From contig OX442314.1 in assembly GCA_949358305.1 (NCBI GenBank), positions 32,235,608 through 32,299,607 on the forward strand: a DNA stretch of 64,000 bases, in the 5' to 3' direction. The DNA is from Strigamia acuminata (Eukaryota; Arthropoda; Chilopoda; Geophilomorpha; Linotaeniidae). The position numbers were made by a program, and so were the translations under genes. Below, piece after piece: positions 1,702 through 48,958 of this stretch (position 1 is the first letter of the stretch; every line of letters begins with the position of its first letter). The notes beneath the pieces are model-generated. The model saw only the letters and a list, made by a program, of their open reading frames with translations. It was not told where the DNA came from and did no database searches.

Positions 1702-2765
1702 TGCGGCGATCCGGGTTTTTACTTATTAAATTATATAAATTCAATAAGCAATCGTCGTAGAGATGCCGTACAGGACTTCTACTCTGTGGCCAAATGTTTG
1801 TCTAGGGGAATGATTTTACACAGAGTAAAGGAAAAATTAGATAGTTTTAATCGTTCAAAATACAAAGGAGGTATTATTTAAAATGTTTGGGGTTGATCTG
1901 GCTTCTTCTTCAAATGTACACTCACAGTTGACCGTTGACTCCAAGATGGCGTCGATGGCGTCGTGTGAGCGCGGGATTTTAGCGGAGTAAACTCGACGCT
2001 AAAATACGTTGCTAAAATATACTAAAATCCTCGTGGAGCACGCTCGACACGAGAATACGTCTTGCACACAGCGGTTCGATTATTACGGAGCAAGCTCGAC
2101 GTAACAATCGGTCTTTACACAAATCGCTTTGTGGAGTTAAACTCGACACAAAGCCTCCAAACTAACAGAGTAAACTCGATGTTAGTTTCACACAGAAATG
2201 GCTTAAATTACACGTAGTAATTCAAGCTAGAAAGTTGCTATTCCGTACAGTGGGTACAGACCAGCGATGAAACTCAATTCGTCCAAGAATCACAGATCAC
2301 ACTTTGCAGTTTTGGCAGAAGTTTGACACGGTTGTGAACAGTTTGGAGGTGGAATCAAGAGTGCGGGAAGAGTGGGCCAAAACCGTTTGGCTCACTCCTA
2401 AATCTGCTCAGAAAAGCTGCGCAGATGACGAGTTGCACAAAGATCACACACGGCCGCCCTCGGGTCGTGTGCAACAACTGAGCCGGGCACGCGCGAGGGG
2501 AAGGGATGCTCCGCCCAGGCACACGCCTAGCAGCATCATCAAAGCAATGCACGCTGCAGCGCGATTGGTTGACGCTGTTGCTGGGCCAAAACTTGCTGCA
2601 AAACACAATATTATTTGGGTAATATTGTGTCTTGTTTTATATTTTATTAATGTATGTTTTATTTCAATTTACATTGAAACAAAACATATAAGCTTGTTGA
2701 ATATGTTTATAAGACAATTTGGAAATATGGTGCGCACTCAAATAGGAATATTTGAGGTCACCACA
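1702..2765 (-). repeat. E1 3' LTR
   Basis: 1064-bp direct repeat of 13422-14485, bounded by TG...CA. It follows the polypurine tract in the minus-strand direction, which makes it the 3' LTR. Positions 1976-2188 carry five consecutive hairpins, described separately. Confidence 0.95.
1976..2188. repeat. Array of five variable-stem hairpins in the E1 LTR (copy at 13696-13908)
   Basis: Five inverted repeats follow each other, each with a near-constant 12-13-nt loop of the form gagynnrctcga on the plus strand. Stems: attttagcg/cgctaaaat (1976-1984/1997-2005); ctcgtg/cacgag (2030-2035/2048-2053); ttacg/cgtaa (2083-2087/2100-2104, extended by gatt/aatc after one mismatch); ctttgtg/cacaaag (2127-2133/2147-2153); aaactaaca/tgttagttt (2159-2167/2180-2188). 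Stem sequences differ from hairpin to hairpin but always pair, and the loop contains its own small GAG..CTC stem. Such structures would form in the RNA and could serve packaging, dimerisation or protein binding; the role is not known. Confidence 0.85.
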
Positions 2766-2779
2766 CTTCCCCCCCTTTT
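2766..2779 (-). other. E1 polypurine tract
   Basis: On the minus strand a purine run (TTAAAAGGGGGGGAAG) directly precedes the 3' LTR. It is the expected primer site for plus-strand DNA synthesis. E2 has the same GGGGGGAAG core before its LTR. Confidence 0.85.
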
Positions 2780-2938: not shown

Positions 2939-5141
2939 TTATTTAGGCAACATGTCCGTCGAATGATCATTGGGATCCTTGTGCTCTGTGACGGTGCACA
3001 AAGGTCGGCCGGTGTTTGGTCCTGACCGGAAGCCAGGGTTGATGTGGAGCCACACTTGCTTGATGCGGTCCACACCATCCCTTCGTCCAAAACCCATCTC
3101 GAAATACTCCTGCGGGTCTTGAGGCGTAATTCGAGCGAACACCAGGCGTTGATGTAGGATCCACGGCTGTTGTTCCTTAATGTGGTTTTCCAGCCACGCG
3201 AGGACTCGGTTGCATAAATCCTCGCTGTTCTGGAGAATCGTTTTTGTCGCGCTCGTTATGTAGCAAAAGGCGTATAATGAGCGCAAACGTTGATAGGCGG
3301 TGAGGTAGGTGGCCATTTTTGATCCCCTATCTCTCGGCGGCGAATCCTTTGGAGGAGGCGGTGGTGGCGGCGACTTCTTGCAGATCGAGAGGGATCTGGA
3401 TCTGCGCGAAGCCGGGGTGCGCGTCTTTGGTCTGGCACCGCTGGCCACAGGCACGACGAACTCGCGATCGTCGCTGTCGAGCCACTCCATTGGAGACGAG
3501 ATGTTGCAACTCGGTGCCTCGGTTGCACGGGAAACACTCGACGTTGCCGTGATGGCAGCGTGGAGTGGAGCTGCGGATGACGGTGGTGCGCCAGCGGGAC
3601 GGGCGGTAGCTCGTTCCGCTGCGCGTCGCTGCTTCAGCGTAGCCCATTCCTGCCGTAGTCGAATGGCGGATCCAGCCGGAGTTTCGCCAGTCGCCTCGGC
3701 TTGTTGCGTCAATTCGGCGAGCATCGTTGGAGGATCAGGGCGAACTGACTCCCAGTCGTCCAGCAAGGCTCGTGGAAGCCCTAACGGCACGGTCCACAAT
3801 CGAGTGGCGGCCGCCAGAGCAATCTGTGGGTCGGGAAAGACTCCTTGGAACAGGATTCGAAGAAGTCCCTCCGACAACTTCCTGTTCATCTTCTGCAGCG
3901 TCCGTTGCAGTTGCTTGTCGGACTTGCACAAGCCATTGCCATTCTTTCTCACCTTCGCGGATCTGAGCGAGTTGGTATTCGTCCAGATGCGCGAGGTACA
4001 TCGCTTGGGCTGTCTCGGGAAACGATGAGAATCGCCTCCAGAGATCAGCGCACTCCTGTGCGGGAAATGGTTCTTGAGATACGTATCCCTCAAAACGGAT
4101 GACCGATGTCACTTGTGGCACGGGTACCGATGGGTCTGGTCGCATGTCGCTGGTGACTGGACGGCAAGCGAACGGCAAAGAGGTGTTGACGTCTCCTTGA
4201 CCGGCTTGCAATGCGGCGATGCGTCGATCTTCTTTCGCTATCTCGTCCGACCAGTCAATTCGGCCGGAGGAGGAAGCGCTAAGCTGTGAAGCGTTGGACC
4301 TCTCTTCACGCGACGAGAGTGAACTCCTCGTGGAAGATTGGCGGGATTGCACTCGAGGTCGGCTTCGGGATGTGGGTCTCGACACGGACTTCGAATGTCT
4401 TTTGGGCGGCGTCGACTCGCGTCGGTGATGTGAGCGATGACGAGCCTTCTGGAGTGGAGGTAACCCTCCAATGGCGCCTTCCCCCGACGACTGTGTTGGG
4501 GAGGAGCGACGGCCACTGTAGGGCGACCTCGATGATCGTGACCTCGACGTGGAGCGCGGCGGCACCACATGGATGGTGGAAGCGACCTGTACCCGGGGCT
4601 CAGGCTCTGGATACGGGTTTGGCACGAAATCAGCATGGAAACATCCGCCCATGGCTAGTTGATGCATCTCCGATTGGCATGTCGGCACCTAACGTTTCTT
4701 TCCGTCCGTTGTTACACGGAAAGATTCGTTGTAGAGGCGTACAACCTCGGCTTTGGTTTGATCCAAGCGTTGGAAAACGTCCTCCAAAATCTGTCGACGC
4801 TCCCACGCAGGAGCGTTGAAGTAACGGCGATGGTCTCGCGTTTCTTGAGCGATCACTGTGAAGGCGAAGTCGAGCAACACGTTTCGCAGTGGTCCGAAGG
4901 TGTCGCGCTTCATTGCCCACTCGAGGGCGTTGCAATGACCGAATCCATCGATTAAATAGGCGATCCGAAACTTCGTTCCCCATCGCTTGTTTAAGGCTTT
5001 TGAGAACTTGTGTCGGGCCGCCCAAAACGTCAGTCTTCCTTTAGACTTTATGATCTCCGGTGGCAAAGCGTGTCGCCAGACACCGGGAGCTGTTGGAACA
5101 TCGGGGTGCAGTTTGAGATGCGTCTCCCGAAGCTGGATGAT
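2939..5141 (-). pseudogene. E1 accessory (3') protein, exon 2, with one stop and an apparent frameshift
   Basis: After the acceptor the frame reads IIQLRETHLKLHPDVP and runs to an in-frame TAG at 4691-4689. It resumes immediately in the same frame through an Arg/Ser-rich region (RSTSRSRSSRSPYS) to about 3930. There homology with E2 moves to the neighbouring frame, which continues to the stop at 2939. Shared with the E2 ORF, in order: an EYQ..QI helix followed by a Trp-containing stretch; IALAAATRLWTVP; SGARPKT; a Pro-rich patch; QPWILHQRL; WLHIN; GPNTGRP; and TDM near the end. No TM segments, no enzyme motif. Function unknown. The stop and shift may be decay or recoding. Confidence 0.6.
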
Positions 5142-5492
5142 CTGTAAAATATTCGAAGAAATAATTAAAATCCATTTTTTCGTGTAAAATAATTATTTCC
5201 GAATTTTCAGTGAATAAAATCACGGGTGAGATTTCATTCGACAGTTTAGATTCATTAAATTTTTCAAAATATTTGAAAAATCGTAAGAAACGTTGTTGCC
5301 GACGGCTATGTTTCAATGTTGGAGCGTTACCGTAGCAACGCCTCAAAAATGAGACACAGCGCCATCTGATGATAATAATGGCGGCGCCTTCTTGCGAAGG
5401 CGTTACCAACGAACTTTTCGCTTTTTCTGAGTGAAAATGCACTTTTAATTACTTTTCATGACTGAAAGGTAATTTTATTTTAAATTATTTAC

Positions 5493-5965: not shown

Positions 5966-8900
5966 TTACGTTTGGGTAACGTCGCGGTTAGTGACGTCAT
6001 CCAATCTTATTGTTTGATTGGTTTGCGTATGGCTTGGGGAATTGCTCCTTACGTCATACGGCTGATCCCTGGATCTCGAGGTTATCGAGGGGAGAAGACA
6101 CATGTTGTTTTTTCCTCTCGGTTTACGAGTCCGAAGATTATATCTCTTTGTCGGCGAGGGATTTATTGTATTTAAATCGCCGTCTTCATTGTCATCGGAG
6201 ACTGAGTCAGATGAGTCTTTTATTTCAGATGTTTTTTGTTTCTTTTCTAAAAACACCTTTTTATTTAATTTTTTAGCAATTTCAAGTTTTTTGAAACTGT
6301 CACGAAGCTCAACGTCGTTATTCACGAGGTCTGACTCCATTTGTGGTTTGGATAAATTATCGACAGGTATTTTCTTTAATTCATCGTCATCTAACGTATT
6401 AATTATATTTTCAGTCTTTTGACCGACTTCTTCGCCTTCTAACCATACTTCCTGATCGAAACTCGGGAAATACGGAGTTAATTCAGACGAATGGACAGCT
6501 GGAAATATTTCGTTATTTTCTAGCTTTCTCAATTCTACGGATCCTCCCTGTAATACTTTGGTTATTACATATGGTCCTGTTCTTTTATCAGCGATGCCAG
6601 CTGCAATGCCGCGGGCAGCGCTTGACAAAACATGAGAATCTCTCCAAACTAAATCGTTTAATTTAAAATTGGAGAACTTCTCACCTTCTTTTTTAAGATT
6701 TACTCGTCTGCGCAAATCTAACACGTGTGACATCATGTGTTGATATGTTTCGGCGATAACGGCTTTTAATTTTTGCACGTATAAATGTGGGTTTTTTGGA
6801 TCTACGACCAAAATTCCTTCAGGTATTCTTGGATCCCAAGGTACTCTGAGTTCGCGAAAAAAGTTAAGAAATGCGGGAGAGAAGTCTCTTCCTCTCGTCA
6901 CCGTAGTTCTCAAACTAAATGCAAATTCACGCAAATATTCGTCCCATTTGGAATGAACAGATGAATAAATTGCAACCAAATATTTGATGTCACGGTTAAC
7001 CCTTTCAACCGGGTTAGCTTGTGGGTGATATGTTGAAGTTGGTGTTGGAACCATCTTGAACTTTTCACAAAATTTTTTAAAGACTTGGGCACGAAATTGC
7101 GGGCCGTTGTCAGAAATAATTTTACGAGGGAATCCCATGCTCATGGAAAGGTGATAAATGCAATTTGCCACTTTTCCTGCAGTAGGGTTACACATTGGAT
7201 ATAATTCTGGCCAATGAGTTGCCACGTCAAGTATGACTAAAATGTGTGTGTTGTTTTTTCGAGTCCGAGGTTTCGGGCCGGTCAAATCAACACTTAGGCA
7301 GTCAAATGGGCTGTAAGGACCCATTTGCGCTGCTTCAATTTGTCCTTTCGTTCGAGGCTTGCAAGCTTGACAACGCTCGCAATGTCGAATGAATCTTGTA
7401 ATGTCCGATTTCATGCCTTTCCAGGTATAAATTCGGCGTGCTCGATAAAGAGTCCTTGCAATTCCTGAGTGGCCAGAAAGTGGGTGGCCATGCATTAGCC
7501 AAATAATTTTATACTTCAATGTCTGAGGTACAAAAACTTTGAGTGCTCTCCCATCCTCCCCCAATTCATCAGACATTGTGGGATGAAATTGCATTAATAA
7601 GTCATCTTCAATTAAGAAGGTGGTTGCGTGTTTTCTGTATTGTTTCCTCTGGAGTCGCGTTGTGACGTCAGGCAGAAATTGATTACAATTTAAAAAATTA
7701 CGCATCAATTGGCAAACTTTATCTTCTTTTTGGGCCTTGATTATGTCTTCCCTTGTAGGGGGTTCACAATCAAGACGCTCTACAATTTTGGCGACAAATG
7801 CTTTTATTAAAACATTTGACGAAGGAATTTGAAATTTCTTTGAAATTTGCGCTCTTATGACGTCATCTGATTCCTCAGAGGGGTCATAAATTTTAGTCCA
7901 ATAATTGACGAATTCGTGATCTTCCTTTTCCTCCAGCGTGGAGACAGGAAGTTCATGAAATTTTCCCATTTTCCAATTTCGTTGAGGTGATGGACAGTAA
8001 GATAATAATTCGTCATTATCTCCATCATCTTCAGGATTTTCCGGTTTGTCAATCGGTGATCTGGATAAAGCATCCGCTAAAACATTTAGTGGACCTTTAA
8101 TATATTGTATTTCGAAAGAGTAGCGCATCAGCTCCATTTGCCAACGCGCTAATCTTCCGGCAGGTTCGTCTAACTGCATCAACCATTTTAGTGCTTGATG
8201 GTCAGTCCTAACTATGAATGTGGTAAATTCCAAATAATGTCGAAATTTACGTAATGCCCAGATTACCGCAAGGCATTCTAATTCTGTGGCGCTGTAATTT
8301 ATCTCAGCAGGTTGCAAACTTCTGCTGGCATAAACACAAGGCACTTCGATATTTTGATCATCGATTTCCCTCATTTGCATAAGCGCGGCGCCCAGTCCTT
8401 TTCTGCTGGCGTCGGTATGCACAATAAATGGTTCTGTCAAATCAGGCATGGCCATTGTTTCTGCATTCGTTAAAGCATCTTTTATTTGATCAAAAGCTTC
8501 TTGATGAATTCCTGACCAAATAAATTCCACATCCTTTTTGAGTAAAGGACGTAGAGGTTCCGTCATGACTGCTAGATTCTTGAGTAATCTGTGAAAAAAG
8601 TTCACCATTCCCAAAAATCTTTGCAACTCTTTCAAATTTGAAGGAGCTGGCATTTCTTTAATGGCGGCGACTTTTTTAGGGTCGACACTGACTCCTTGAA
8701 CACTTAACTTGTAGCCAAGAAAAGTTAATTCTTTTCTGCCAAATTTTGATTTTCCTGGATGAACATGAAGATTTGCATTTTCAAGTTTACTCAGAATTTC
8801 TTCCAGATGAATCATGTGTTCTTCAAAATTTTTAGATATAATAATTATATCATCGAGGTATGCCCATGCGAATTTTCGATAGGCGTCCCCCAAAATTTTT

Positions 8901-10414
8901 TCTATCAACTTTTGGAAAGTTGACGGCGCATTTACGAGGCCAAAGGGCATGACTCGAAATTGTAGTCGACCCAAAGGGCTCCAAAACGCAGTTTTAGCAC
9001 GGTCGTTCGGATGAACCTCTATTTGCCAATAGCCTTTTGACAAATCTATCGTTGTGACCCATTCAAATCTTCCGAGTTCTCGCAAGATTTCCTCAATGCT
9101 CGGCATTTGAGGAGGATCGTATAATGTATGTGCATTGAGTGGTCTAAAATCAATGCAGAGTCTCGGATCACAATCCGGACGCATCACTAGAACTATTCGC
9201 ATTCCATAGTCTCCAGTGGCTTGTTCAACGTACCCATTATCCAACATATCTTGACAGATCTGACGGATAATTTCACGTTTCTGTGGATTTACGCTTTTAA
9301 ACGGAACTCTAATTGGAACTTTAGTGTCCAGTTTAATTTCATGCCTAACGAGGTGTGTTCTACCTGGTCGGCGTGATAAAATCTTTTCATGTTTCTTTAA
9401 TACTTTTTCAAGCATTAAATTATTTTCCATTGACAAATTAGCGTCGCTAACAAGTCTTTGTACTATATTTTCTTCATTTGCAACTTTAGCTTGACACGCA
9501 GTGGCAGAGCCAGCTTTCATGTAATTTGCTTTAATAAAGTCGCGTCTCATGATTTCTTCGGGTGGATCAAGGAACTCTTGATAACGATCAAGAATCGCTT
9601 GAGGAACAAAAGGTAAATCTTCTTTCAAAGACTTGACAAAATTCCAAGACATGGTCTTAGGATTTGGTTGAATATTGAGTCGATTCATGAAATCACATCC
9701 TAATAAAATAATAGGATATTTATTTCTTAAAATTATGAATGGATGACTTAACATCCCGTGTGTCCACGCAAAAGAAAGTAGGAGAGTTCCTTCAGGGACT
9801 ACATCTTCTGAAGCAGTCGTAACTCTCACATCCGGTCCAATTGGTCGAATTTCATCTTCCAGTTTCAACGAAATTACTACGGAGTAGGCCATGAAGCTTC
9901 GATTAGCTCCAGAGTCTAACATCCCTGTTATCATACCGTTTGCCGTCTGCAATCGAATCGTCGGCAAATCATTGCTGTTTGGTATGTCCGCGTACTTGCA
10001 CTTAAAACGTCGCGGTGGCTTAATTTCTATCGGCGGATCTAATGGTAATTCGTCCAATAAATCATTAGTGACTAGCGTTGCAGCCATTAATTTTTCAATA
10101 CATTCATCAAGACCAGGTAAATCAATTTTATCTGACCTTTCAATGATTTCAGGTGTTGGCCTAGTTTTTTCATCAATTAAAGTAACAGCATCTTTTATTT
10201 TAGATTCCCAATCAATTTTTATTTGTTGAACTTTTTCTTTAAAAAATTCTTCAGTGATGTTCTCATTTTGCAGCACAAGCCTTAAATTGGAAACATCAAT
10301 TTTTGGAAATATTAAATTATTTTCTAATTCTAATTTAATCTGAGTATTTAAAAAATCATCTAAAATTTGAGATGGTGTTAGTTCATTTTCCGAGGCGGTA
10401 GGCGTTGCATCCAC
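5966..10414 (-). CDS. pol: E1 Pol: protease, reverse transcriptase, RNase H, integrase (1482 aa)
   Basis: An intact single ORF. Aspartic protease with DSGA near residue 167. RT with IDFRPLNAHT, FGLVNAPSTFQ and the YLDD catalytic motif near residue 517. RNase H from about residue 650 (VHTDASRKGLG, ending ADALSRSP). Integrase with the HHCC zinc domain near residues 975-1015 (HPLSGHSG...CERCQACK) and the D,D-E core: D at about 1043 (DLTGP), D at about 1101 (SDNGPQF), E at about 1135 (NPVERVN). The C-terminal tail is acidic, then basic. Pol does not overlap gag. A UAG lies in the pol frame at 10420-10418, between the gag stop and the pol AUG, so ordinary frameshifting cannot fuse the two. Reinitiation or a separate message is implied. 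Confidence 0.95.
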   Translation of the reverse strand: MDATPTASENELTPSQILDDFLNTQIKLELENNLIFPKIDVSNLRLVLQNENITEEFFKEKVQQIKIDWESKIKDAVTLIDEKTRPTPEIIERSDKIDLPGLDECIEKLMAATLVTNDLLDELPLDPPIEIKPPRRFKCKYADIPNSNDLPTIRLQTANGMITGMLDSGANRSFMAYSVVISLKLEDEIRPIGPDVRVTTASEDVVPEGTLLLSFAWTHGMLSHPFIILRNKYPIILLGCDFMNRLNIQPNPKTMSWNFVKSLKEDLPFVPQAILDRYQEFLDPPEEIMRRDFIKANYMKAGSATACQAKVANEENIVQRLVSDANLSMENNLMLEKVLKKHEKILSRRPGRTHLVRHEIKLDTKVPIRVPFKSVNPQKREIIRQICQDMLDNGYVEQATGDYGMRIVLVMRPDCDPRLCIDFRPLNAHTLYDPPQMPSIEEILRELGRFEWVTTIDLSKGYWQIEVHPNDRAKTAFWSPLGRLQFRVMPFGLVNAPSTFQKLIEKILGDAYRKFAWAYLDDIIIISKNFEEHMIHLEEILSKLENANLHVHPGKSKFGRKELTFLGYKLSVQGVSVDPKKVAAIKEMPAPSNLKELQRFLGMVNFFHRLLKNLAVMTEPLRPLLKKDVEFIWSGIHQEAFDQIKDALTNAETMAMPDLTEPFIVHTDASRKGLGAALMQMREIDDQNIEVPCVYASRSLQPAEINYSATELECLAVIWALRKFRHYLEFTTFIVRTDHQALKWLMQLDEPAGRLARWQMELMRYSFEIQYIKGPLNVLADALSRSPIDKPENPEDDGDNDELLSYCPSPQRNWKMGKFHELPVSTLEEKEDHEFVNYWTKIYDPSEESDDVIRAQISKKFQIPSSNVLIKAFVAKIVERLDCEPPTREDIIKAQKEDKVCQLMRNFLNCNQFLPDVTTRLQRKQYRKHATTFLIEDDLLMQFHPTMSDELGEDGRALKVFVPQTLKYKIIWLMHGHPLSGHSGIARTLYRARRIYTWKGMKSDITRFIRHCERCQACKPRTKGQIEAAQMGPYSPFDCLSVDLTGPKPRTRKNNTHILVILDVATHWPELYPMCNPTAGKVANCIYHLSMSMGFPRKIISDNGPQFRAQVFKKFCEKFKMVPTPTSTYHPQANPVERVNRDIKYLVAIYSSVHSKWDEYLREFAFSLRTTVTRGRDFSPAFLNFFRELRVPWDPRIPEGILVVDPKNPHLYVQKLKAVIAETYQHMMSHVLDLRRRVNLKKEGEKFSNFKLNDLVWRDSHVLSSAARGIAAGIADKRTGPYVITKVLQGGSVELRKLENNEIFPAVHSSELTPYFPSFDQEVWLEGEEVGQKTENIINTLDDDELKKIPVDNLSKPQMESDLVNNDVELRDSFKKLEIAKKLNKKVFLEKKQKTSEIKDSSDSVSDDNEDGDLNTINPSPTKRYNLRTRKPRGKNNMCLLPSITSRSRDQPYDVRSNSPSHTQTNQTIRLDDVTNRDVTQT

Positions 10415-10434
10415 TAGACCGTCGGGATGCGCGC

Positions 10435-13329
10435 TTACAAGTTTTTTAGAAGTTCGCCGATTGATTTCATCGATTTTTCGAACTCCTCAATAATCTTGTC
10501 TTTGCTCGTTTTCCTATCAGGACATTCTTTAGCCCAATGTCCTAATTTTTTGCAAATGTTACACGGGTCAGTAGCAGGTGATTTTGCGACTTTTGGCGAA
10601 GGCGAACTTGAGCGTTTGGCTTCGTCCTTTTTCGGGGTCGGCGACTTCGATCTACTGAGCGCGTCTGTCTTTGGTAAACCAAAAGTAACGTTTTTAGGCG
10701 CCATCTTTGGTCCAAATTTTCGAGCTACTGCGTTATTACGGGCTAATAAAGCAGCTGCAGCCTCGCTTTCTGGTTCCGAGTCAGATTTCTCTGGTTCAGA
10801 AGCAGCTTCCATATCTGTCACTTCGGCTAAGTGAGCTTTAGGGGTTGGATGTGGATTTTTCCCATCCGATCCCTTTCTAGATTCCTTAGCAGTCTCTGCC
10901 AAAAAATCTCCTCGTTTTGGGGGTTGCAAAAGAGGGGTGTTAGCAAAACGTGTGTCTTTTGCCAACTCCTTTCTCCGTTGCTGTCGCTTAGCGTACGCAA
11001 CTTTTTCATCAGCTGGTAGATAAGCTTTATAATTTTCGTCAATCCTTATCTGATTAGCTCGCATAAATTTGGCTAATTCAGCGAAACCACCCGGATAAGG
11101 TGCTCGTACAGAAAGTAGAACATTTTTTGAGTAATCTGTCAATCCACGACGGAATTGACGATCAATGGCTGCGTCTCCCATCGTATAAGGGAGAGTGACC
11201 AATAAATCCTCAGTCCTTCTTAAATAAGAGCGAAGACTTTCGCCTTTATTTTGAGAAAGATTATCCCACATTTGTAATAAGTCTTCACTTGACTCTCCAT
11301 ACTCAGTCATGAATTCTTCTACAAAGTGGTTCCAGTTTTGAAATTGTTTAGAATAAAACCATTTCTCAGCTCGATCTATAAGAGCTTTTGGTACTACTCT
11401 TTTCAAAGCAGTGTGACATGCAATGCCATTCAACCTTGAAATTCGTAAAACTTCATCTAAAAGAGTGGATCCAGCTTCCCATTCTCCATCGAATAAAGCG
11501 GGTTTGATGTGATCCCATCTAATAGTTCTTTCATCAACTAGATCGTGCGTCCAGTTGTTGGCAGTGTATTGAGCAATTTTCTGTCGTAGTGCAATGTCAG
11601 CATTATCGGCAGTAGCGTCAGATCGATCGGAAGATCGACGATCAGCTAATAATCGATCAATTTCTTCAGCGGTGTAATAATGAGTATTACGCCGAGAAGA
11701 ATGGCCTCGATGTCGACGTCGATGAGATCGATGTCGATTATCGCGTTCTTGTTGCGCATTCACATCAGAATCCGACCTTGAATCAGATTGTGAATTTGAA
11801 GGCGTGTTAAAATGTGGTGTTTCAGGTGGGTCGGGTGGGTCGCCGTCATCGTCTGGCGGTCGACGTCCACCTCCAGGTGGTCCATCTCCGTGTCCATCTG
11901 GATTTCCTCCATTTGGTGGATTTCTTCTATACTGACCCCCACCTGGCGGGCTTTCATGTCCGTCGGGTGGTTCGCGTGCTGGATTCGTGTCTCGTCGACT
12001 TCTTTTCGACGAGTCTTGCTGTTGAGCCAGTGGTATCGTTCGAGTAACATGAATACCAGTTTCATGCCGTCTATTTTGATCATCTACCATTCCCAACAGT
12101 CGGTCACTGTTATGAAAAATAGGATTTCGATTTCCAGGGAGCGGATTGCGATCAGCTCTCCGTTCCTCGGAATCTGAAGGACGTTTTCTTTTTGAGCGAT
12201 GGCGGCGACGCGAACGTTGGTCGTCATCACTCGATAATCCAGATTGGCTACTTAACTCTGAAACAACAGAAATTGTTATTGTTTCGGGAGTCAAAATAGG
12301 AACAGTTGGCGCAGCCATTTCTGGTTGTACCAATTGGTCAGTATAATTTCTTGCTTGCAAACGATCTTTCATTTCTGCAAGCTCCTCTTGAGCGCGCAAC
12401 AAATCAGCTCGGAGAATTTCATTCTCATTTATTTCATTTTGCGATTTTTCTGGTTGTAATCGCTTAGCAGGGTCGCTAGACTTGACTTGTCCGCTCGTAC
12501 TGGGTTGATCCAGCGAGTGGAAAATCTCGTCTTCACGCTTAGCTATTTTGCTTTCGCGAGTACGCTGTGTTTTAGCACGTGTGTCTAATTCAGCAGCATA
12601 TCTCACTAGTTGATTATGATTGCGTTGGTAGTGATCTGCCAAATCAATCAACTCTTTATTTTTCTGCTCTAACTTACTTTTGGTAAGTTCGAGCTGTCTT
12701 CGCGCCTCTTGGTGTGAGCGAATTGAAAGTTCATTTCTAGTATTCATTTTAGAAAGATCTTCCACTTCACCTTTTAATCTGTATTCTCTAGCTTTTTGGG
12801 CTAGAAATTCCTCATTTTGTCGATTGAGTTCCATATGTTGGAGCTCAACCTCCGCTTTTTGTTGTTGAAGCTCAGCTTGTTTTCGCTCCATTTCAAATTG
12901 TAAATTTGAAACGGCGCGGTCAGTGTGAAGTCGTATCATGGCGCGATGAATCTCTTCCACCGTCATGTCGTCCGTTATTTGGGCGCCATCTTGGCGTGCT
13001 TGATTTCTCAAAGCATCCAACATGGTCATGCGAGGAGGTGATTCGTGAGACGATTCACTTTCCATTTCACGTAACGTATTTTCCACTTCCTCCAGTGGAA
13101 GTGGCGGGAGTTCTTGTTCGTTAGAACTCGCACTTGATGCGCTCAGGGCTCGAGCAACCTCATTTTCAGCATCCTTAAGTTGTTTCGGATCTGGAACTGG
13201 TGTTATTTCTTCAGAAATAACTTTTTCCATAAGCATTTCAGGCTCGAGAGCCGGCAAAACCGTCGCTGCTCGTTTCTGAGTGCTTGGTCGACCTCGCTGT
13301 CGTTTTACAATTTGCATTGGCGTCGCCAT
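10435..13329 (-). CDS. gag: E1 Gag (964 aa)
   Basis: Structural protein of E1, starting MATPMQIVKRQRGRPS. An RGRP core near residues 12-16 in a basic context resembles an AT-hook. A long glutamine/glutamate-rich coiled coil covers roughly residues 130-310. Next come an Arg/Ser- and Gly/Pro-rich low-complexity linker, a retrotransposon-gag-like helical domain (around residues 600-780, with DGEWEAGSTLLDE, AEKWFYSKQFQNW and LRSYLRRTEDLL), and one CCHC zinc knuckle near the C-terminus (CNICKKLGHWAKEC). Translation stops at 10437-10435; the pol AUG is 20 nt further on. Long for a gypsy Gag because of the coiled coil and linker. Intact. Confidence 0.93.
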   Translation of the reverse strand: MATPMQIVKRQRGRPSTQKRAATVLPALEPEMLMEKVISEEITPVPDPKQLKDAENEVARALSASSASSNEQELPPLPLEEVENTLREMESESSHESPPRMTMLDALRNQARQDGAQITDDMTVEEIHRAMIRLHTDRAVSNLQFEMERKQAELQQQKAEVELQHMELNRQNEEFLAQKAREYRLKGEVEDLSKMNTRNELSIRSHQEARRQLELTKSKLEQKNKELIDLADHYQRNHNQLVRYAAELDTRAKTQRTRESKIAKREDEIFHSLDQPSTSGQVKSSDPAKRLQPEKSQNEINENEILRADLLRAQEELAEMKDRLQARNYTDQLVQPEMAAPTVPILTPETITISVVSELSSQSGLSSDDDQRSRRRHRSKRKRPSDSEERRADRNPLPGNRNPIFHNSDRLLGMVDDQNRRHETGIHVTRTIPLAQQQDSSKRSRRDTNPAREPPDGHESPPGGGQYRRNPPNGGNPDGHGDGPPGGGRRPPDDDGDPPDPPETPHFNTPSNSQSDSRSDSDVNAQQERDNRHRSHRRRHRGHSSRRNTHYYTAEEIDRLLADRRSSDRSDATADNADIALRQKIAQYTANNWTHDLVDERTIRWDHIKPALFDGEWEAGSTLLDEVLRISRLNGIACHTALKRVVPKALIDRAEKWFYSKQFQNWNHFVEEFMTEYGESSEDLLQMWDNLSQNKGESLRSYLRRTEDLLVTLPYTMGDAAIDRQFRRGLTDYSKNVLLSVRAPYPGGFAELAKFMRANQIRIDENYKAYLPADEKVAYAKRQQRRKELAKDTRFANTPLLQPPKRGDFLAETAKESRKGSDGKNPHPTPKAHLAEVTDMEAASEPEKSDSEPESEAAAALLARNNAVARKFGPKMAPKNVTFGLPKTDALSRSKSPTPKKDEAKRSSSPSPKVAKSPATDPCNICKKLGHWAKECPDRKTSKDKIIEEFEKSMKSIGELLKNL

Positions 13330-13401
13330 TTTGTCAAATTGAAAAAGAACAATGGAAATAAAGGATCTTTTTGCAAAAATCGGATTTTAACAATCAAAAC
13401 T

Positions 13402-13419
13402 ATCCCGGACGGGCCCCCA
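13402..13419 (-). other. E1 primer-binding site, tRNA-Pro type
   Basis: Minus-strand TGGGGGCCCGTCCGGGAT lies 2 nt downstream of the 5' LTR. It is complementary to an animal tRNA-Pro 3' end and differs by one base from the tRNA-Pro PBS known from murine leukaemia virus. Confidence 0.85.
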
Positions 13420-13421
13420 AG

Positions 13422-14485
13422 TGCGGCGATCCGGGTTTTTACTTATTAAATTATATAAATTCAATAAGCAATCGTCGTAGAGATGCCGTACAGGACTTCT
13501 ACTCTGTGGCCAAATGTTTGTCTAGGGGAATGATTTTACACAGAGTAAAGGAAAAATTAGATAGTTTTAATCGTTCAAAATACAAAGGAGGTATTATTTA
13601 AAATGTTTGGGGTCGATCTGGCTTCTTCTTCAAATGTACACTCACAGTTGACCGTTGACTCCAAGATGGCGTCGATGGCGTCGTGTGAGCGCGGGATTTT
13701 AGCGGAGTAAACTCGACGCTAAAATACGTTGCTAAAATATACTAAAATCCTCGTGGAGCACGCTCGACACGAGAATACGTCTTGCACACAGCGGTTCGAT
13801 TATTACGGAGCAAGCTCGACGTAACAATCGGTCTTTACACAAATCGCTTTGTGGAGTTAAACTCGACACAAAGCCTCCAAACTAACAGAGTAAACTCGAT
13901 GTTAGTTTCACACAGAAATGGCTTAAATTACACGTAGTAATTCAAGCTAGAAAGTTGCTATTCCGTACAGTGGGTACAGACCAGCGATGAAACTCAATTC
14001 GTCCAAGAATCACAGATCACACTTTGCAGTTTTGGCAGAAGTTTGACACGGTTGTGAACAGTTTGGAGGTGGAATCAAGAGTGCGGGAAGAGTGGGCCAA
14101 AACCGTTTGGCTCACTCCTAAATCTGCTCAGAAAAGCTGCGCAGATGACGAGTTGCACAAAGATCACACACGGCCGCCCTCGGGTCGTGTGCAACAACTG
14201 AGCCGGGCACGCGCGAGGGGAAGGGATGCTCCGCCCAGGCACACGCCTAGCAGCATCATCAAAGCAATGCACGCTGCAGCGCGATTGGTTGACGCTGTTG
14301 CTGGGCCAAAACTTGCTGCAAAACACAATATTATTTGGGTAATATTGTGTCTTGTTTTATATTTTATTAATGTATGTTTTATTTCAATTTACATTGAAAC
14401 AAAACATATAAGCTTGTTGAATATGTTTATAAGACAATTTGGAAATATGGTGCGCACTCAAATAGGAATATTTGAGGTCACCACA
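13422..14485 (-). repeat. E1 5' LTR
   Basis: 1064 bp, nearly identical to 1702-2765 and bounded by TG...CA, with the PBS directly downstream on the minus strand. It is expected to drive transcription leftwards. The same hairpin array is at 13696-13908. Confidence 0.95.
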
Positions 14486-14660
14486 GCTTTGATGAAGACG
14501 TCCGGCTCGCATTCTGTCGGTAGTTTTGCTTGCACGTCCTTGATGGTCGATAGGATTTGTTTTTGTAGCGCGAGGTAGATCGGTTCTTTTTGATTTTCGT
14601 CCCATATCGTAAGGGAATACACGGTGGAAAATAGACCGTTCCATTCGTTAATGGTAACTC
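14486..14660 (-). pseudogene. CUL5: Cullin-5, N-terminal coding fragment upstream of the E1 insertion
   Basis: On the minus strand this segment encodes VTINEWNGLFSTVYSLTIWD followed by ENQKEPIYLALQKQI and ending in VFIKA. This matches the human cullin-5 stretch beginning VTKQQWFDLFSDV. Dropping E1 and one GCTT duplicate joins VFIKA directly to YTAKW in frame, as in other cullin-5 proteins. Upstream (above 14660) the homology stops abruptly at the conserved valine, where the truncated E2 body begins, so about 30 N-terminal residues are missing. I found no cullin-5 first exon up to 24.5 kb. The Gag frame of the truncated E2 does not fuse with cullin-5: it hits TAA within the cullin sequence. 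Confidence 0.9.
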
Positions 14661-15318
14661 GTTAGTTCCATTTCGAATGCTAATGTCTCTATTCGATAAT
14701 CCATTTCATCGACAAATTGTTCGCTTTCAAAATTGATCGTGGCTAGGCGAATTTTCTCGGCCGCGTCTGGATCTACGAGGAGAACTTCGGCAACGAGCGC
14801 TTCAAACTCTGGTGACCGCTGAGGAAATTCATATCTTTGTCTTGGAGTCGAGGTGCGTGGTTGAGTACGATCATTTACTTTGTCAATACTCCTTTTTGTT
14901 TCAGCATCCATTTCACGATCCGTTGAAACATTTTTGAATTTTTGAAATGAACGTTTTTTCGCATCAAGTGAAATTTCAGCCGATATCTCGGCTTCGGCGA
15001 TTTCCAATCGAGTTTCGGCTGAGCGTTTAGCCGTTACTTCCTTTGGAAAACTAGTGCGCCGAGTTTGGGCACCTTGTGGGCAGTTAGACCCGACTATTGG
15101 ACGACTATACGTCCTTCCCTCAATTGGCGAAGGGACTTCATCATGTAACTTAGGCATGATGGCAAGAATGTTACAAAAAGAGAAGAAAGATGATAGGAAA
15201 GTTAGAAAAATAGGTAAAAAATACTAAAATGGGGAAAAACAAGATTTTTTAATTTTTTAATCTTACTTTAAATTCTAAAAATTCTAAAAATTGGGATAAT
15301 CCCGGCCGGGCCCCCAAG
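14661..15318 (-). mobile_element. Truncated second E2 body: PBS/leader and Gag-like N-terminus
   Basis: Matches 20559-21216 apparently without difference: leader, PBS (15299-15316) and the first about 165 codons of the E2 ORF (15157 down to 14661, starting MPKLHDEVPSP). It breaks at 14661 where cullin-5 begins. With the LTR at 15319-16804 it gives LTR-body-LTR-partial body, as expected from unequal recombination between elements, or from an assembly join. Confidence 0.85.
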
Positions 15319-16804
15319 TGTTGCGTTCCTGGATGTTCCCAAAATATATGATAATAATAATTGCACAGAATATTAATCTAATTCAATGCAAAAGGTCCCG
15401 GTATTCAACCTGTGGAAAGCAGTTGAATGCCGTAAAAGGTCTTCTATCGGGTTTGGCAGTTAAGTTGGTGTCTAGGGGTTTTTTGGCTGTTGGTTTTGTG
15501 TCTAGGGGTTCTTTTGGTAGCAAATGCAATAATAACAAGTAATTTAAAAAAGGATAAACAGTTTTATTAATGTTAAAATTAAGGAGTAATATGAATACAA
15601 GGGATAAATAAATAATTAAGTGAATATTGCTAAAGTTAAACAAAGAAATAAGAGAAAGGCGCGAGAACAATGGAATTGTTCGCGCGCGCGGAAACAATAA
15701 GTTTGGAAAATGGCGGCAACGGATCGCCGTGAAAATTGGTGCAAATGCACACAAACGGGCGCGGAATCGTGAGATTTCGCGATGTGATTCGGCTGTGGAG
15801 CCAGAATCGTGGCCAGCTAGATAGCCAGGCCAAAGTGGAGAATACGAGGTGTGAACCCTCGAGTTGAAACGGGAAATTCTCCGTTGAAAACTCACGAGTC
15901 CAACTGGCGTGGTTCGCACTGTCGAATCCGGTTTTCAGGTCCGTTTCTTCTCGGTAAATTACCGTCGTCAGTAGGTCGAGCGTCGAGGTTTCGTCGGCTT
16001 TCGCGCGTCGTCCCTCGTCAACTCGGCGGCTGGCTGGCGTCGGTCTTCAACGTATATCACTCGAATTACCGTCGTCGGTGGCTAGCGTCGAGGTTTCGTC
16101 GGCTTGGCGCGCGTCGTCCCTCGTCGGCTTGGCGTGATCCGGGCGTCGGTCTACGATGGTGCGTATACGTTTATCTTCGGGCGGCGGCGGAAACAACGGT
16201 TGCTCGGTCCGTTGCACGTCGACTTCGTCGTCCGGGAAGGAGTCACTTGATGCGTATTGGCATCAAGCAAATCAGTTGAAACTTTGCAATATCTCACGGA
16301 TCACGGACAAAACAGTGTTTTTGGTTTGAACAAAGCTGTGTCGGTGTGAACGGTGTGAGGAGGAGGCAAAGAGTGAGTAATAAACGAATTTATTACCCAA
16401 ACTTTGGCCGGAAAATCGGCCGAGTGCGCATGCGTGGCATGCACCTGGCACACTTCGTGCCCAGCAACGGTGCAAATTAGGAGCTGGCCATAGCAACCCC
16501 CCAATTTGGCAGTTAGGTTGCCATGGCAGTCCTAACGGCTTCTGTTTAACAGCCGAAAGCACTTGGCAATTGCAAATAAAATGAGTATTTTATTTGCACA
16601 AGCAAGCAAAAAATATGTAATTATTTTAACAAATAATTCATTAAAAACACTAAAATAAATTGATTCCTTAAATTACCAATTTCTACTATTTCTAAATAAT
16701 TAAAGGGACTGTAAAACAATTTATTTAACACATTAAATAGATTAAATTATTAATTTCTTATACTCCAAATATTCCAAATAAAAGGAACATTTGAGATCAC
16801 AACA
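15319..16804 (-). repeat. E2 3' LTR (also 5' LTR of the truncated copy)
   Basis: 1486 bp, repeated at 21217-22702. Contains an internal tandem duplication of roughly 100 bp: the gtcgaggtttcgtcggct block near 15985 recurs near 16085. Confidence 0.92.
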
Positions 16805-17140: not shown

Positions 17141-20100
17141 TTAGTGGCATTGAATCCAATAAATGATGCCGATTGGTAACTCTGGGGCTAAAGGAGTCGG
17201 CAATCGAGGTAAGCTCATGTCTGTTGTCTTGTCTCGAAGGTTTTCCCTCTCGAGGACAAGTTCAAACGGACGGCCGGTATACGGCCCAAAAATTAAATCT
17301 GTGTTGTCGTGCAACCACTCACTTCTAATTGAGCAAAAGTTGACGTTATCTTCAAACGTTATTTCGTTATTTTCTCGGGGCATTTTCGGCTTTTTTCTAA
17401 CTTTTGTTAGCCGCTGATAATGAATCCACGGCTGCTTTGCCTCGATGTGGCGTTCTGAGCGCTCTTGATCTTCGTACCCGAGATTAACTGAATTTTCTTG
17501 CAGCATCCTCATGTGTGGTTGCAGCCTTGAGTAGGTTTTTCGTAATTGGCGGTAAATTGTCAATTCTTCTTGATCTTCCAACTGTTTCGAGGGAATTGAA
17601 CAAGGTTTCGCCGGTGACGGCGGTTTTGTCCGTGATGGACGTCTCTTTTTTGTAGACTGTCGAGTCACGGGAGGTGCGAAGGCACATGTTTCACTGATTG
17701 GTCTTGTCGCCAATGCGCCTTGTGCATCATGCACTAGTCGGGTGACCAAGCGATTTTTCCGCTGAAGAAATGTTTTTGGCCTGGCGCCTGAGCTGGCATA
17801 ATCGACAGTCCGTAGGATGGGCCCGCTGGAATTGGGTCTTGACGTTGAAATCGACGAGTTGACGGGCTGTATTGTCGTAAATTGTCCTGAGGTCTTTATA
17901 GCCTTTTTGGTCGCTTTTACAGCAACACCAGCAGCAGGATTCAATGTTGATGAAGATCTCGTTTTCTTCTTGACCAGGGAGACCGGCATTTCTTCTGGTT
18001 GAACTGATTCGAGCTCCGTTTGGTAGGTATCTCCTCGTTCATCTCGTTCATTCAGCAGTTTGACCAACTCGGCCGAATGTTTGGAAATCGAAGCTGGTGG
18101 AGACTTCTTTTTTAGCGTTGGCGAAACTGGTGTCTCTACTGATTGAATCGCTGGGAGTACATGCTTGTGAGCGATCTTCCGTGGCTTCCGCTTCTTGTGA
18201 AGTTGGATGGCCGATTCGGCCAAGTGTTTGTTACTAACAAGTACAAGTTCTTGCTGTATGGTCGACGAATCTAGGAGAATGGACCTCCAGTAGTCTAAAA
18301 AATTATCTTGGTTACCAGTATTCATCGGGGGTGTCCAGAGACATATTGCGTCTGCGAGGGCAATTCGATTGCTTGTGGCGGTGCTCCGAGTTAAAATGCT
18401 GCAAAGTCCTGCGACCAATAATTGTTGTAAAGCGGAGAGTTGAATGTCCAGGGCATTGGTTGGCTCCATGTCGCGCAGATGATTGATTATACGCTGCCAA
18501 TTTTGAATGGTTTTGCTAATTTGAGTCCTTTGATACTCATTCAGGTCTTCCATCAAAATATCTTGTGTGTCACGAGGCAATACTTCAACACTGGACTTCG
18601 TCATGTCATAATTTTGGTCAAACGATCGGCTTTGAGTCAAAGAAACTGTTTCGAATTTCTCAGCCGGAAATTGGGATTTTGTGGTGCTTGTTTTTGGATA
18701 CACAGAGGTCGTGATGGAGTTTCTAACAATAGATACTTCTTGTGCATTCGGATGTGTTAACACTGGGGTCAAATGGGTAATTGGTTTCTCCAAATTTTCA
18801 ATTTGCATTAACACTGGAGTCGAATTGATAATTGACTTTTCCCAATTTTCAACTTGCGTTGCCCAATCCATAGCCGTTTGGTCGGCTGTCTGTGACAATT
18901 CCAAGGGATAATCTTTTTTAATTTTTTCCGCTGTTGGCACAGAATTAATATTTTTCAACAAGGCGATTGATGTTGGAGTGGCGGAGATCGGCGCATCACT
19001 GGTTGAGACATAAATTTCCGTCGGCTGCGATGTGTCGGTCTCTGCGTCCCATCGTTTCTCTGCTTTGCTGAGAGGCTTTTCCCCTGCAATTGTTCCATGT
19101 GGCTCACACACTTCCACGTCTTCATCCCGTTCATCGGAATTTTCATCAGGCTGTGGAACTTGGTGATATGACGTTTCGTATCGTTGTTGTTTAGTGAGCT
19201 CACCGAATTCACAAATTTTCCTTTCAGATTGACACTTGGGATGGTCTTTTTTATCAAGAAAGGTAAATTTTGGTTGCGCACCCTTATTTATTTTAGATGT
19301 ATCAAATGATCTTTTTGTAAAAAGCTTTTTAGGCTTACATTTATCTTCAGCCACGTGTTTAGCTAACACTACACTGGTATTACCAATTGTTGAGCCGGTT
19401 TCTTTTTCGGCTTTCACTTTAGCTTTGAGATCGACTTCATTCATCGAGTCAACAATGGTAAGTCGAGTATGAGAATGAGAAGTTTTTGTAGAACAATGAG
19501 GATTCTGCACTTGATTAATGTTTTTTGCCGGTTTCTCGGCAAATGTAGCTGCACTTGATCTCTCGAAAGTTTGTTCTCGGTATTCAAATGTTTTTTCAAT
19601 CTCTTCAGTTGCATTGTAAATTGGGGTCCAATCTGAGAGCGAAGATGCACATGTTTGAGGACGACTTTGTTGTCCCCCCACCTTAGGTGAACGCGTTGAC
19701 TGTTCACTGCTGAAAGCGGAATTTTCACGTCTTGATTGATATGGCGGAGAACAATCACTACTTTTTTCGCATTCCCTCTTTGGTGGATTAATATATGTTG
19801 GTGAACCGTAATGTGATTGAGAGTCATTGAAATTATTTTCGATATCTGAATTTTTGCAGAAGTTGCTGGATAATTTCGCACTTTGTTCACAATTTTTTGA
19901 GTCTATTATATTCAATAATGCATGGCTATTATTAAATATTTCATCACTTGAAGTGTTCCATTTTTTACAGTCAGAAGCTTCCATCGTTGAACTTCTTTTC
20001 GTTTGAAATTTTCGTTTGTCATTACTGGACGCACAGAACGAACGATTATTGTCAGTAGTTGCAAGATTAACCATTTTAGGTTTGAACGCCGTGACATCCG

Positions 20101-21055: not shown

Positions 21056-21196
21056 GATGGCAAGAATGTTACAAAAAGAGAAGAAAGATGATAGGAAAGT
21101 TAGAAAAATAGGTAAAAAATACTAAAATGGGGAAAAACAAGATTTTTTAATTTTTTAATCTTACTTTAAATTCTAAAAATTCTAAAAATTGGGATA

Positions 21197-21214
21197 ATCC
21201 CGGCCGGGCCCCCA
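21197..21214 (-). other. E2 primer-binding site, tRNA-Pro type
   Basis: Minus-strand TGGGGGCCCGGCCGGGAT, 2 nt from the LTR. It differs from the E1 PBS by one base. An identical copy is at 15299-15316. Confidence 0.8.
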
Positions 21215-21216
21215 AG

Positions 21217-22702
21217 TGTTGCGTTCCTGGATGTTCCCAAAATATATGATAATAATAATTGCACAGAATATTAATCTAATTCAATGCAAAAGGTCCCGGT
21301 ATTCAACCTGTGGAAAGCAGTTGAATGCCGTAAAAGGTCTTCTATCGGGTTTGGCAGTTAAGTTGGTGTCTAGGGGTTTTTTGGCTGTTGGTTTTGTGTC
21401 TAGGGGTTCTTTTGGTAGCAAATGCAATAATAACAAGTAATTTAAAAAAGGATAAACAGTTTTATTAATGTTAAAATTAAGGAGTAATATGAATACAAGG
21501 GATAAATAAATAATTAAGTGAATATTGCTAAAGTTAAACAAAGAAATAAGAGAAAGGCGCGAGAACAATGGAATTGTTCGCGCGCGCGGAAACAATAAGT
21601 TTGGAAAATGGCGGCAACGGATCGCCGTGAAAATTGGTGCAAATGCACACAAACGGGCGCGGAATCGTGAGATTTCGCGATGTGATTCGGCTGTGGAGCC
21701 AGAATCGTGGCCAGCTAGATAGCCAGGCCAAAGTGGAGAATACGAGGTGTGAACCCTCGAGTTGAAACGGGAAATTCTCCGTTGAAAACTCACGAGTCCA
21801 ACTGGCGTGGTTCGCACTGTCGAATCCGGTTTTCAGGTCCGTTTCTTCTCGGTAAATTACCGTCGTCAGTAGGTCGAGCGTCGAGGTTTCGTCGGCTTTC
21901 GCGCGTCGTCCCTCGTCAACTCGGCGGCTGGCTGGCGTCGGTCTTCAACGTATATCACTCGAATTACCGTCGTCGGTGGCTAGCGTCGAGGTTTCGTCGG
22001 CTTGGCGCGCGTCGTCCCTCGTCGGCTTGGCGTGATCCGGGCGTCGGTCTACGATGGTGCGTATACGTTTATCTTCGGGCGGCGGCGGAAACAACGGTTG
22101 CTCGGTCCGTTGCACGTCGACTTCGTCGTCCGGGAAGGAGTCACTTGATGCGTATTGGCATCAAGCAAATCAGTTGAAACTTTGCAATATCTCACGGATC
22201 ACGGACAAAACAGTGTTTTTGGTTTGAACAAAGCTGTGTCGGTGTGAACGGTGTGAGGAGGAGGCAAAGAGTGAGTAATAAACGAATTTATTACCCAAAC
22301 TTTGGCCGGAAAATCGGCCGAGTGCGCATGCGTGGCATGCACCTGGCACACTTCGTGCCCAGCAACGGTGCAAATTAGGAGCTGGCCATAGCAACCCCCC
22401 AATTTGGCAGTTAGGTTGCCATGGCAGTCCTAACGGCTTCTGTTTAACAGCCGAAAGCACTTGGCAATTGCAAATAAAATGAGTATTTTATTTGCACAAG
22501 CAAGCAAAAAATATGTAATTATTTTAACAAATAATTCATTAAAAACACTAAAATAAATTGATTCCTTAAATTACCAATTTCTACTATTTCTAAATAATTA
22601 AAGGGACTGTAAAACAATTTATTTAACACATTAAATAGATTAAATTATTAATTTCTTATACTCCAAATATTCCAAATAAAAGGAACATTTGAGATCACAA
22701 CA
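21217..22702 (-). repeat. E2 5' LTR
   Basis: Same 1486-bp sequence as 15319-16804. The PBS follows on the minus strand. The right flank (from 22703) shows no cullin-5 sequence. Confidence 0.92.
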
Positions 22703-31235: not shown

Positions 31236-31237
31236 CG

Positions 31238-31255
31238 TGGTGCCGAAACCCGGGA
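31238..31255 (+). other. E3 primer-binding site, tRNA-Phe type
   Basis: TGGTGCCGAAACCCGGGA, two bases after the LTR. It is complementary to the conserved animal tRNA-Phe 3' end (TCCCGGGTTTCGGCA plus CCA). Confidence 0.85.
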
Positions 31256-47884: not shown

Positions 47885-48958
47885 TGTGGTGACCTCAAAT
47901 ATTCCTATTTGAGTGCGCACCATATTTCCAGATTGTCTTATAAACATATTCAACAAGCTTATATGTTTTGTTTCAATGTAAATTGAAATAAAATATATAT
48001 TAATTAAATATAAAACAAGACACAATATTACCCAAATAATATTGCGTTTTGCAGCAAGTTTTGGCCCAGCAACAGCGTCAACCAATCACGTTGCAGCATG
48101 CATTGCTTTGATGATGCTGCTAGGCGTGTGCCTGGGCGGAGCATCCCTTCCCCTCGCGCGTGCCCGGCTCAATTGTTGCACACGACCCGAAGGCGGCCGT
48201 GTGTGATCTTTGTGCAACTCGTCATCTGCGCAGCTTTTCTGAGCAGATTTAGGAGTGAGCCAAACGGTTTTGGCCCACTCTTCCCGCATTCTTGATCCTG
48301 CTTCCAAACCTTTCACAACCGTGTCAAACTTATGCCCAAACTCGCTAAGTGTGATCTGTGATATTGGAAGAATCGAGATTCATTGCTGGTCCGTGCCAAC
48401 TGTACGGAATAGCGCCTTTCTAGCTTGAATTACTACGCGTAATTTAAGCAATTTCTGTGTGTAAATTGACATTGAGCTTGCTCTGTCAATTTGAAGGCTT
48501 TGTGTTGAGTTTAACTCCACAAGGCGAACTGTGTTAAGACGGATTGTTACGTCGAGCTTGCTCCGTAATAATCAAACCGCTGTGTGCCAGACGTATTCTC
48601 GTGTTGAGCTTGCTCCGCGAGGATTTTAGAATATTTAGAGGCGTATTTTAGCGTTGAGTTTACTCCGCTAAAATCCCGCGCTCATACGACGCCGTCGACG
48701 CCATCTTGGAGCCAACGGTCAACTGTGAGTGTAGGTTTGAAGAAGAAGCCAGATCGACCCCAAACATTATCTTTTTGAATAATACCTCCTTTGTATTTTG
48801 AACAATTAAAGCTATCTAATTTTTCCTTTTACTCTCTGTGTAAAAATCATTCCCCTAGACAACCATTTGGTCACAGAGTAGAAGTCCTGTACGGCATCTC
48901 ACCGACGATTGCTTGTTAAATTTGTATAATTTAATAAGTAAAAACCCGGATCGCCGCA
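47885..48958 (+). mobile_element. Solo LTR of the E1 family, diverged
   Basis: 1074 bp, inverted relative to E1, from TGTGGTGACC to GGATCGCCGCA. Flanked by the 4-bp duplication tcct (47881-47884, 48959-48962). It retains the five-hairpin array (about 48463-48670) with stem changes that preserve pairing. There is no internal sequence, so it arose by LTR-LTR recombination. Confidence 0.93.

Follow-up and report, generated by a model that had tools for sequence, protein, structure and literature searches.

The window, that is, the whole 64-kb stretch of DNA analysed here, carries on its minus strand a retrotransposon that we call E1. Its 3' LTR (1702..2768) and 5' LTR (13422..14489) have their ends set by a direct repeat of 99.8% identity. 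Between them lie gag (10441..13329; 963 amino acids with a Retrotrans_gag domain and a CCHC zinc knuckle) and the pol open frame (5966..10486), which encodes reverse transcriptase (RT), RNase H and integrase. Since these domains occur in that order, in an element whose gag and pol are flanked by direct LTRs, E1 is assigned to the Ty3-type LTR retrotransposons, with which it shares gag, RT, RNase H and integrase between LTRs. A protein search with the RT region of E1 gave relatives of 34-44% identity from mixed taxa (best 120 of 934), and the protein search with Gag gave no relative. After pol, three separate open frames follow on the minus strand (5192-4689, 4688-3735 and 4108-2939, in the region 2939-5192), none of which matched a Pfam family. 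The upstream part of the E1 LTR contains a palindrome (14350-14323, minus strand; ACACAATATT...AATATTGTGT), present with one change in a diverged solo LTR (47885..48958, plus strand) that is about 92% identical to the E1 LTR.

Other repeats are found in the same window. About 170 bases beyond the E1 5' LTR, two direct repeats of 2144 bp, 100% identical (14661-16804 and 20559-22702), lie around and overlap a 1326-amino-acid frame within 17144-21121 (minus strand) that has no Pfam match; these repeats could be the long LTRs of a young element. The frame has a C-terminal region in common with the E1 frame at 4108-2939 (28% identity over 286 aligned columns, E 4e-18). A second Ty3-type element has LTR-like repeats at 30226-31235 and 41654-42663 (99.9%) and frames for RT and integrase at 33326-37827, and a tandem array with a repeat offset of about 167 bases occupies 44144-45560.

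The feature that we followed is an array of hairpins in the E1 LTR. The original prediction had placed five adjacent inverted repeats at 1976-2188 of the 3' LTR, and they lie exactly there, on the minus strand, which is the transcript strand. All of these hairpins have the same shape, in which a lower stem of 8-11 bp leads to a bulge of two bases on the 5' side, then to three pairs, G-C, A-U and G-C, and finally to a small loop with a Y-R pair at its base. H1 (2159..2188) has a 9-bp stem, the bulge UC and the apex GAG-UUUA-CUC; H2 (2126..2154) has a stem of 8 bp, H3 (2078..2109) of 10-11 bp, and H4 (2027..2056) and H5 (1976..2005) of 9 bp each. The same five hairpins occur in the 5' LTR (13696..13908, minus strand) and in the solo LTR (48463..48674, plus strand), which was rightly said to keep the array. 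The comparison of the two H1 stems was also accurate, since two stem pairs and the apical Y-R pair are altered on both sides between E1 and the solo LTR. A sixth hairpin, H0, lies 5' of the array (2201..2227, minus strand); it has an 11-bp stem and another loop, and its apex is not of the TAR-like kind described below.

What had to be revised is the description of the apex as a constant loop, TCGAGYNNRCTC. The apex is indeed shared, but most of this 12-mer is paired: TC is the 5' bulge, GAG pairs with CTC, and the loop proper is YNNR, so the 12-mer as a single loop was rejected. Its form is present in four of the five E1 hairpins, but not in H2, whose loop has 5 nt (TTTAA) in E1 and 4 nt in other subfamilies. 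Moreover, the second base of the bulge, taken as a constant part of the apex, varies.

We assessed how specific this hairpin type is to the LTRs. Fifteen hairpins that combine the array apex with a stem of 8 bp or more are present in the 64-kb window, and all 15 are inside the three LTRs. Sixty first-order Markov windows of the same length gave none, and the window outside the arrays contained no further hairpin with this apex even when stems of at least 6 bp were accepted. All five hairpins are present in the fold predicted for the E1 array, whose stability exceeds that of dinucleotide shuffles (z -3.6; 1 of 200 shuffles was as good). Rfam gave 0 matches at the gathering score in the 64-kb window.

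In order to examine the pairing over many copies, we aligned 102 arrays of the close family (68 of them distinct) from the host genome; one match of 73% (in L039) was not included in this step and was recognised afterwards as a diverged relative. Standard pairs make up 4342 of the 4348 pair cells. Pairing was kept in 12 of 12 variants present in at least two of the 68 distinct arrays (7 as G-U, 5 by two-sided change) and in only 6 of 12 singleton variants (Fisher p 0.014). The singletons are largely younger than the insertion, and the contrast is what one expects of purifying selection while copies are active and neutral decay thereafter.

Further LTR stretches were found through their match of about 70-88% to the L039 relative or to L125, another relative, and 40 of these diverged stretches were taken. 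The joint alignment draws on 138 arrays with 111 distinct sequences among them, which, together with an E1 reference row that repeats L002, make 112 rows from several subfamilies, with a median identity to E1 of 0.92, a minimum of 0.66 and 17 rows below 0.85. Some of the most diverged arrays are absent from the counts, because 134 of the 140 loci gave an alignment row; the matches in L122, L125, L126 and L139 were shorter than 150 bases, and L124 and L137 had no match. As a null model, the substitutions of each column were redistributed over the tree in 300 simulations. Across the 65 pairs of H1-H5, 99.2% of the cells are paired on the transcript strand (null 90.2±2.6%), two-sided changes recur in two or more arrays at 18 of the 65 pairs (null 4.98±1.97) and are found in 225 cells (null 32.6±16.5); none of the 300 simulations reached any of these values, every one of which is weakened by recombination between subfamilies, as chimeric arrays break the assumption of a tree. 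The number of further pair types, on the other hand, was not above the tree-based null (42 vs 37.9±3.1; reached in 38 of 300 simulations).

The two-sided changes are spread over the whole array. They are seen in at least two arrays at 4 of 13 pairs in H1, 4 of 12 in H2, 4 of 14 in H3 (10 cells), 3 of 13 in H4 (14 cells) and 3 of 13 in H5 (61 cells). Taken singly, H4 and H0 are the weakest, with three pairs each, a number that was reached in 20 of 300 simulations for either hairpin; in H0, 97.4% of the cells are paired. A covariation test over all pairs of columns, modelled on R-scape and of low power here, gave a single pair out of 56,616 at E≤0.05, namely pair 4 of H1; pair 6 of H1 had an E of 0.78, so that the outcome agrees with the other counts but is a weak one. 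Variants found in at least three arrays keep pairing in 29 of 31 cases, rare ones in 31 of 74 (p 3e-7). The selection on structure that had been read from one pair of copies is thus supported: the check by covariation over many LTR copies turned up the compensatory excess whose absence would have spoken against it. We regard it as nearly certain that the RNA structure is under selection.

Two-sided changes may also be produced with no selection at all, if reverse transcriptase switches templates and perfects a hairpin by copying one arm from the other, as one such event could yield both changes at once. However, this process would wipe out the G-U pairs and the bulge, and it leaves unexplained why the stems are slow, why one U and one A are invariant while the second bulge base is fast, and why pairing is kept in 12 of 12 shared but 6 of 12 single variants. 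We consider it highly improbable that template switching accounts for the pattern.

The diverged copies show to what extent a stem can be exchanged. Many of their hairpins stand on other stems, for example GATTAACA/TGTTAATC, TTCTTTGTG/CACAAAGAA or CTAATTTCCGTG/CGCGGAAATTAG, and the apex is unchanged. When hairpins with an intact GAG/CTC and at least four of the five pairs next to the bulge were counted in 41 diverged stretches, 20 stretches had five of them, 13 had four, 5 had three, 1 had two and 2 had one. The finding is stronger and more specific than its first reading: what is conserved is a recognition site repeated on replaceable stems.

Next to be considered is the place of the array in the transcript. 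The sense strand of E1 has an ATG at LTR position 234, and the next one downstream is that of gag, at position 1161. The resulting ATG-free stretch of 924 nt (13330..14253, minus strand), a putative 5' leader, begins about 345 nt upstream of H1 and contains the array. In the part tested (positions 251-1160), 12.4 sense ATGs are expected and 0 of 2000 Markov sequences had as few as E1, while the antisense strand of the same part has 13 ATGs against 11.8 expected. The depletion holds for the family: 95 of the 112 rows have no sense ATG in the 340-nt array region (mean 0.24, against a mean of 4.1 for CAT), and the 53 full-length LTRs have on average 0.85 ATG and 13.6 CAT after position 250. The rule is not a strict one: a single ATG occurs in 35 of these 53 LTRs and two or more in 5, so that 13 are free of it and 40 are not, and the solo LTR carries an ATG at 448. 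This depletion of sense-strand ATGs before gag places the array most likely in the leader of the gag-pol mRNA. The array is probably part of the 5' leader RNA of E1. A putative CCAAT box near LTR position 200 and an Inr-like TCAGTT near position 290 were read by eye.

The same strand asymmetry bears on the question of whether the inverted repeats act as DNA, either as cruciforms or as protein sites on the duplex. The apex GAGYNNRCTC does come close to a DNA palindrome, and the rare one-sided variants are without significant strand asymmetry (22 G-U and 16 A-C on the transcript strand, p 0.21). However, the frequent one-sided variants, those in at least three arrays, comprise 12 G-U and 2 A-C (p 0.006), the 2-nt bulge is on one strand only, and the loss of ATG is confined to the sense strand (0, against 13 antisense). 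Sites on duplex DNA would, moreover, need no compensated stems. The DNA cruciform is disfavoured by this asymmetry, and we give hardly any credence to DNA-level palindromes as the explanation.

A leader with hairpins may, alternatively, govern scanning, internal initiation or nuclear export by means of a host RNA-binding protein. The position of the array, directly before gag in an ATG-poor stretch, is as expected if ribosomes traverse the leader. However, roles of this kind alone do not demand an identical bulge-and-stem core in every hairpin, and we think it unlikely that the array is primarily a translation or export element.

The core itself was counted in the 553 gap-free hairpins out of 560 (7 have gaps), with positions numbered as in TAR. 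The full core R-U-N-GAG/CUC-Y is present in 536 of the 553, which are non-independent instances owing to shared ancestry and were found via array-like queries, so that the spacers in the same alignment are their fair control. Position 22, directly before the bulge, is a purine in 552 hairpins and in a standard pair in 551. The first bulge base, position 23, is U in 552, whereas position 24, the second, is C in 317, T in 228, A in 7 and G in 1. Above the bulge, pair 26-39 is G-C in 541 of 553, pair 27-38 is A-U in 552 (A27 itself is present in all 553) and pair 28-37 is G-C in 550, followed by C-G (325) or U-A (224) at pair 29-36. In HIV TAR, a C-G pair comes after G-C, A-U and G-C. Parsimony changes per site are 0.2 for the first bulge base, 0.6 for GAG/CTC, 1.6 each for the apical Y-R pair and the inner stem, 2.4 for the outer stem, 2.45 for the loop, 4.42 for the spacer and 10.8 for the second bulge base, the fastest class of all. 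A C at this base forms a CpG with the G that follows in 312 of 553 hairpins, and this may supply part of the speed of its C/U turnover. With TG at the site in 228 hairpins and CA in only 5, the change on one strand is kept, and the one that would disrupt the G-C pair is scarce.

This core corresponds to published requirements for arginine recognition by RNA. In HIV-1 TAR, according to the available text of PMC11885821, Tat binding is abolished by U23C and U23A, position 24 tolerates any base, U25 is dispensable (the HIV-2 bulge is UU), G26-C39 and G28-C37 enclose the U23-A27-U38 triple from both sides, a swap of either of these two pairs abolishes binding, and G21 is contacted by an arginine. 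The accessible parts of PMC6189040 define the arginine sandwich motif by a bulge pyrimidine, held in a triple, as the cap and the paired nucleotide before the bulge as the base, and describe the TAR apical loop as a hexaloop. In the same source, the U40U41 bulge of 7SK stem-loop 1 with A43-U66 (motif 3) has the same secondary structure as the TAR bulge, and several motifs are packed into about one helical turn of one stem. The E1-family hairpins have, by sequence, each element of the TAR rule set (U23, a free position 24, G26-C39, A27-U38 and G28-C37) as well as those of the arginine sandwich (a U cap with its A-U partner and a paired base before the bulge). As judged from the sequences and from those parts of the two papers, the variation among hairpins follows the Tat-TAR rules position by position, with the exception of the G21 contact, whose equivalent position is nearly always a pyrimidine. 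It is likely that the hairpins are read by an arginine in the TAR manner.

The likeness to HIV TAR includes the 5' pyrimidine bulge starting with U, of 2 nt as in HIV-2, the G-C, A-U and G-C pairs that follow, the pair with a 5' purine below the bulge, and the location in an LTR. In contrast to TAR, the E1 family has five to seven hairpins of one kind, in another type of element; its loops, as counted in the 68 distinct arrays, are of 4 or 5 nt and not of six; a Tat was not recognised by Pfam in the three small frames of E1; and the array is seemingly far from the transcript start. Since its loop, the number of hairpins and probably the position in the transcript set it apart from TAR, the array would be a TAR-type site by sequence logic and not a member of the TAR family. 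With 7SK stem-loop 1, as far as the partial source describes it, the hairpins share the U-containing bulge with an A-U triple partner and the presence of several motifs in one RNA; 7SK, however, is a small RNA of the host with its motifs in one stem, whereas E1 is a retrotransposon whose leader has one motif per hairpin. The other Ty3-type element of the window (30226-42663) has no such array and no TAR-like hairpins.

One alternative is control of transcription as in TAR or 7SK, in which the nascent leader would capture an arginine-rich protein of the host or of the element (HEXIM-like or Tat-like) together with P-TEFb, and elongation from the LTR would rise. HIV TAR and 7SK stem-loop 1 share the arginine sandwich motif, whose core is the one conserved here, and the 7SK bulge is reported to have the same secondary structure as that of TAR (available parts of PMC6189040 and PMC11885821). 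However, the TAR hexaloop is replaced by YNNR or a 5-nt loop, no small frame after pol matches Pfam, and the array seems to lie some hundreds of bases past the putative start and not at +1. Transcriptional control as the main role is a doubtful proposition. Also tentative is the idea that regulation like that of Tat and TAR, or a mimic of 7SK, arose outside lentiviruses: five to seven arginine sandwich sites in the leader of a Ty3-type element would capture an arginine-rich protein, with stems that diversify and a site that stays fixed. The captured protein could then be HEXIM of the host, along with P-TEFb, or else Gag of the element itself with a function in the nucleus.

We favour the reading that an arginine-rich protein, most probably the Gag of the element itself, docks on the array in a multivalent manner and that this serves packaging or a translation switch; we put the probability of this reading at about one half. 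The functional roles listed in the original prediction stay putative, and the data as such favour docking of a protein and do not single out which one. Each hairpin displays on its own stem the same core, made of an R-Y pair, the U+N bulge, G-C, A-U and G-C pairs, the Y-R pair and a 2-nt loop (3 nt in some H2). The bulged U would form a U-A-U triple above the pair below the bulge, and arginines would read the two guanines of the core. Five to seven such sites in a row would permit multivalent docking, and hairpins with different stems would not pair among themselves. Gag may bind through either of two long arginine-rich stretches, the candidate ligand at residues 368-391 (12157..12228, minus strand) and that at residues 528-547 (11689..11748, minus strand); a shorter basic stretch spans residues 781-794. 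Binding would mark the RNA for packaging and could also shut off translation of the same RNA. As a single role for the array, this Gag-mediated packaging or translation switch is the best candidate, at even odds overall.

Both long stretches are also present in four of five further elements with LTRs of other subfamilies (L159, L160, L161 and L163; the fifth, L162, gave no Gag match). Their conservation says little, because Gag is 89-98% identical in these four. In sequence terms, the stretches are compatible with a ligand role and no proof of it. For Ty1 and Ty3, the available text of PMC4974528 has translation and packaging compete for the same RNA and calls the packaging sequences undefined. 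A leader array that is bound by Gag would fit this description.

The packaging signals of LTR retrotransposons are poorly defined, and the natural variation seen here acts as a mutagenesis experiment. It points to a base-by-base recognition rule that is testable with a peptide and a 30-nt RNA. If true, TAR-type recognition extends beyond lentiviruses and 7SK, and an ordinary retrotransposon uses it in multivalent copies. In the coronavirus SL5 hairpins and the gammaretroviral tetraloop hairpins, too, a packaged RNA repeats one apex on several different stems close to its 5' end. Those packaging hairpins repeat a loop, whereas the E1 array, with its putative packaging role, repeats a bulge and an apical stem. 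A term search of the text of PMC5035971 gave neither a tetraloop nor GACG. A survey of titles and abstract openings, its scope leaving aside preprints and most subscription papers, gave no precedent for a TAR-like or arginine-sandwich array in an LTR retrotransposon.

The array has grown in some copies. Two of them (L164, G000:C1:8968000-8968420, and L165, C1:57689400-57689820) have seven hairpins, with an extra H1-H2 pair before the usual five that resembles the H1-H2 of another subfamily. In their minimum free energy folds other pairings take the place of several hairpins, among them H4 and H5 in either copy, and this speaks against independent folding when seven hairpins are present. A scan of the genome with a three-motif Y-R pattern, limited to the form that begins with TTGAG, gave 59 matches, with 0 and 0 in the controls. 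By the matched letters, 58 of them belong to the E1 LTR family, some overlapping within one array, and 26 begin like the seven-hairpin form; the match at C1:50046853 was discarded as a simple tandem repeat. A looser pattern gave 218 matches, and a TTGAGAAATCTC satellite is among the matches listed. At G000:C1:60777927-60794872 the loose pattern matched a satellite with TTGAGAAATCTCGAGAAAAT-type units in both orientations. Two pattern scans of viral contigs yielded 18 loci (L101-L118), 17 of which were without an E1-type bulge on a stem of at least 6 bp. One locus from IMG/VR, L112, has three matches to the E1-type bulge with a 6-bp stem, spaced 36 bases apart.
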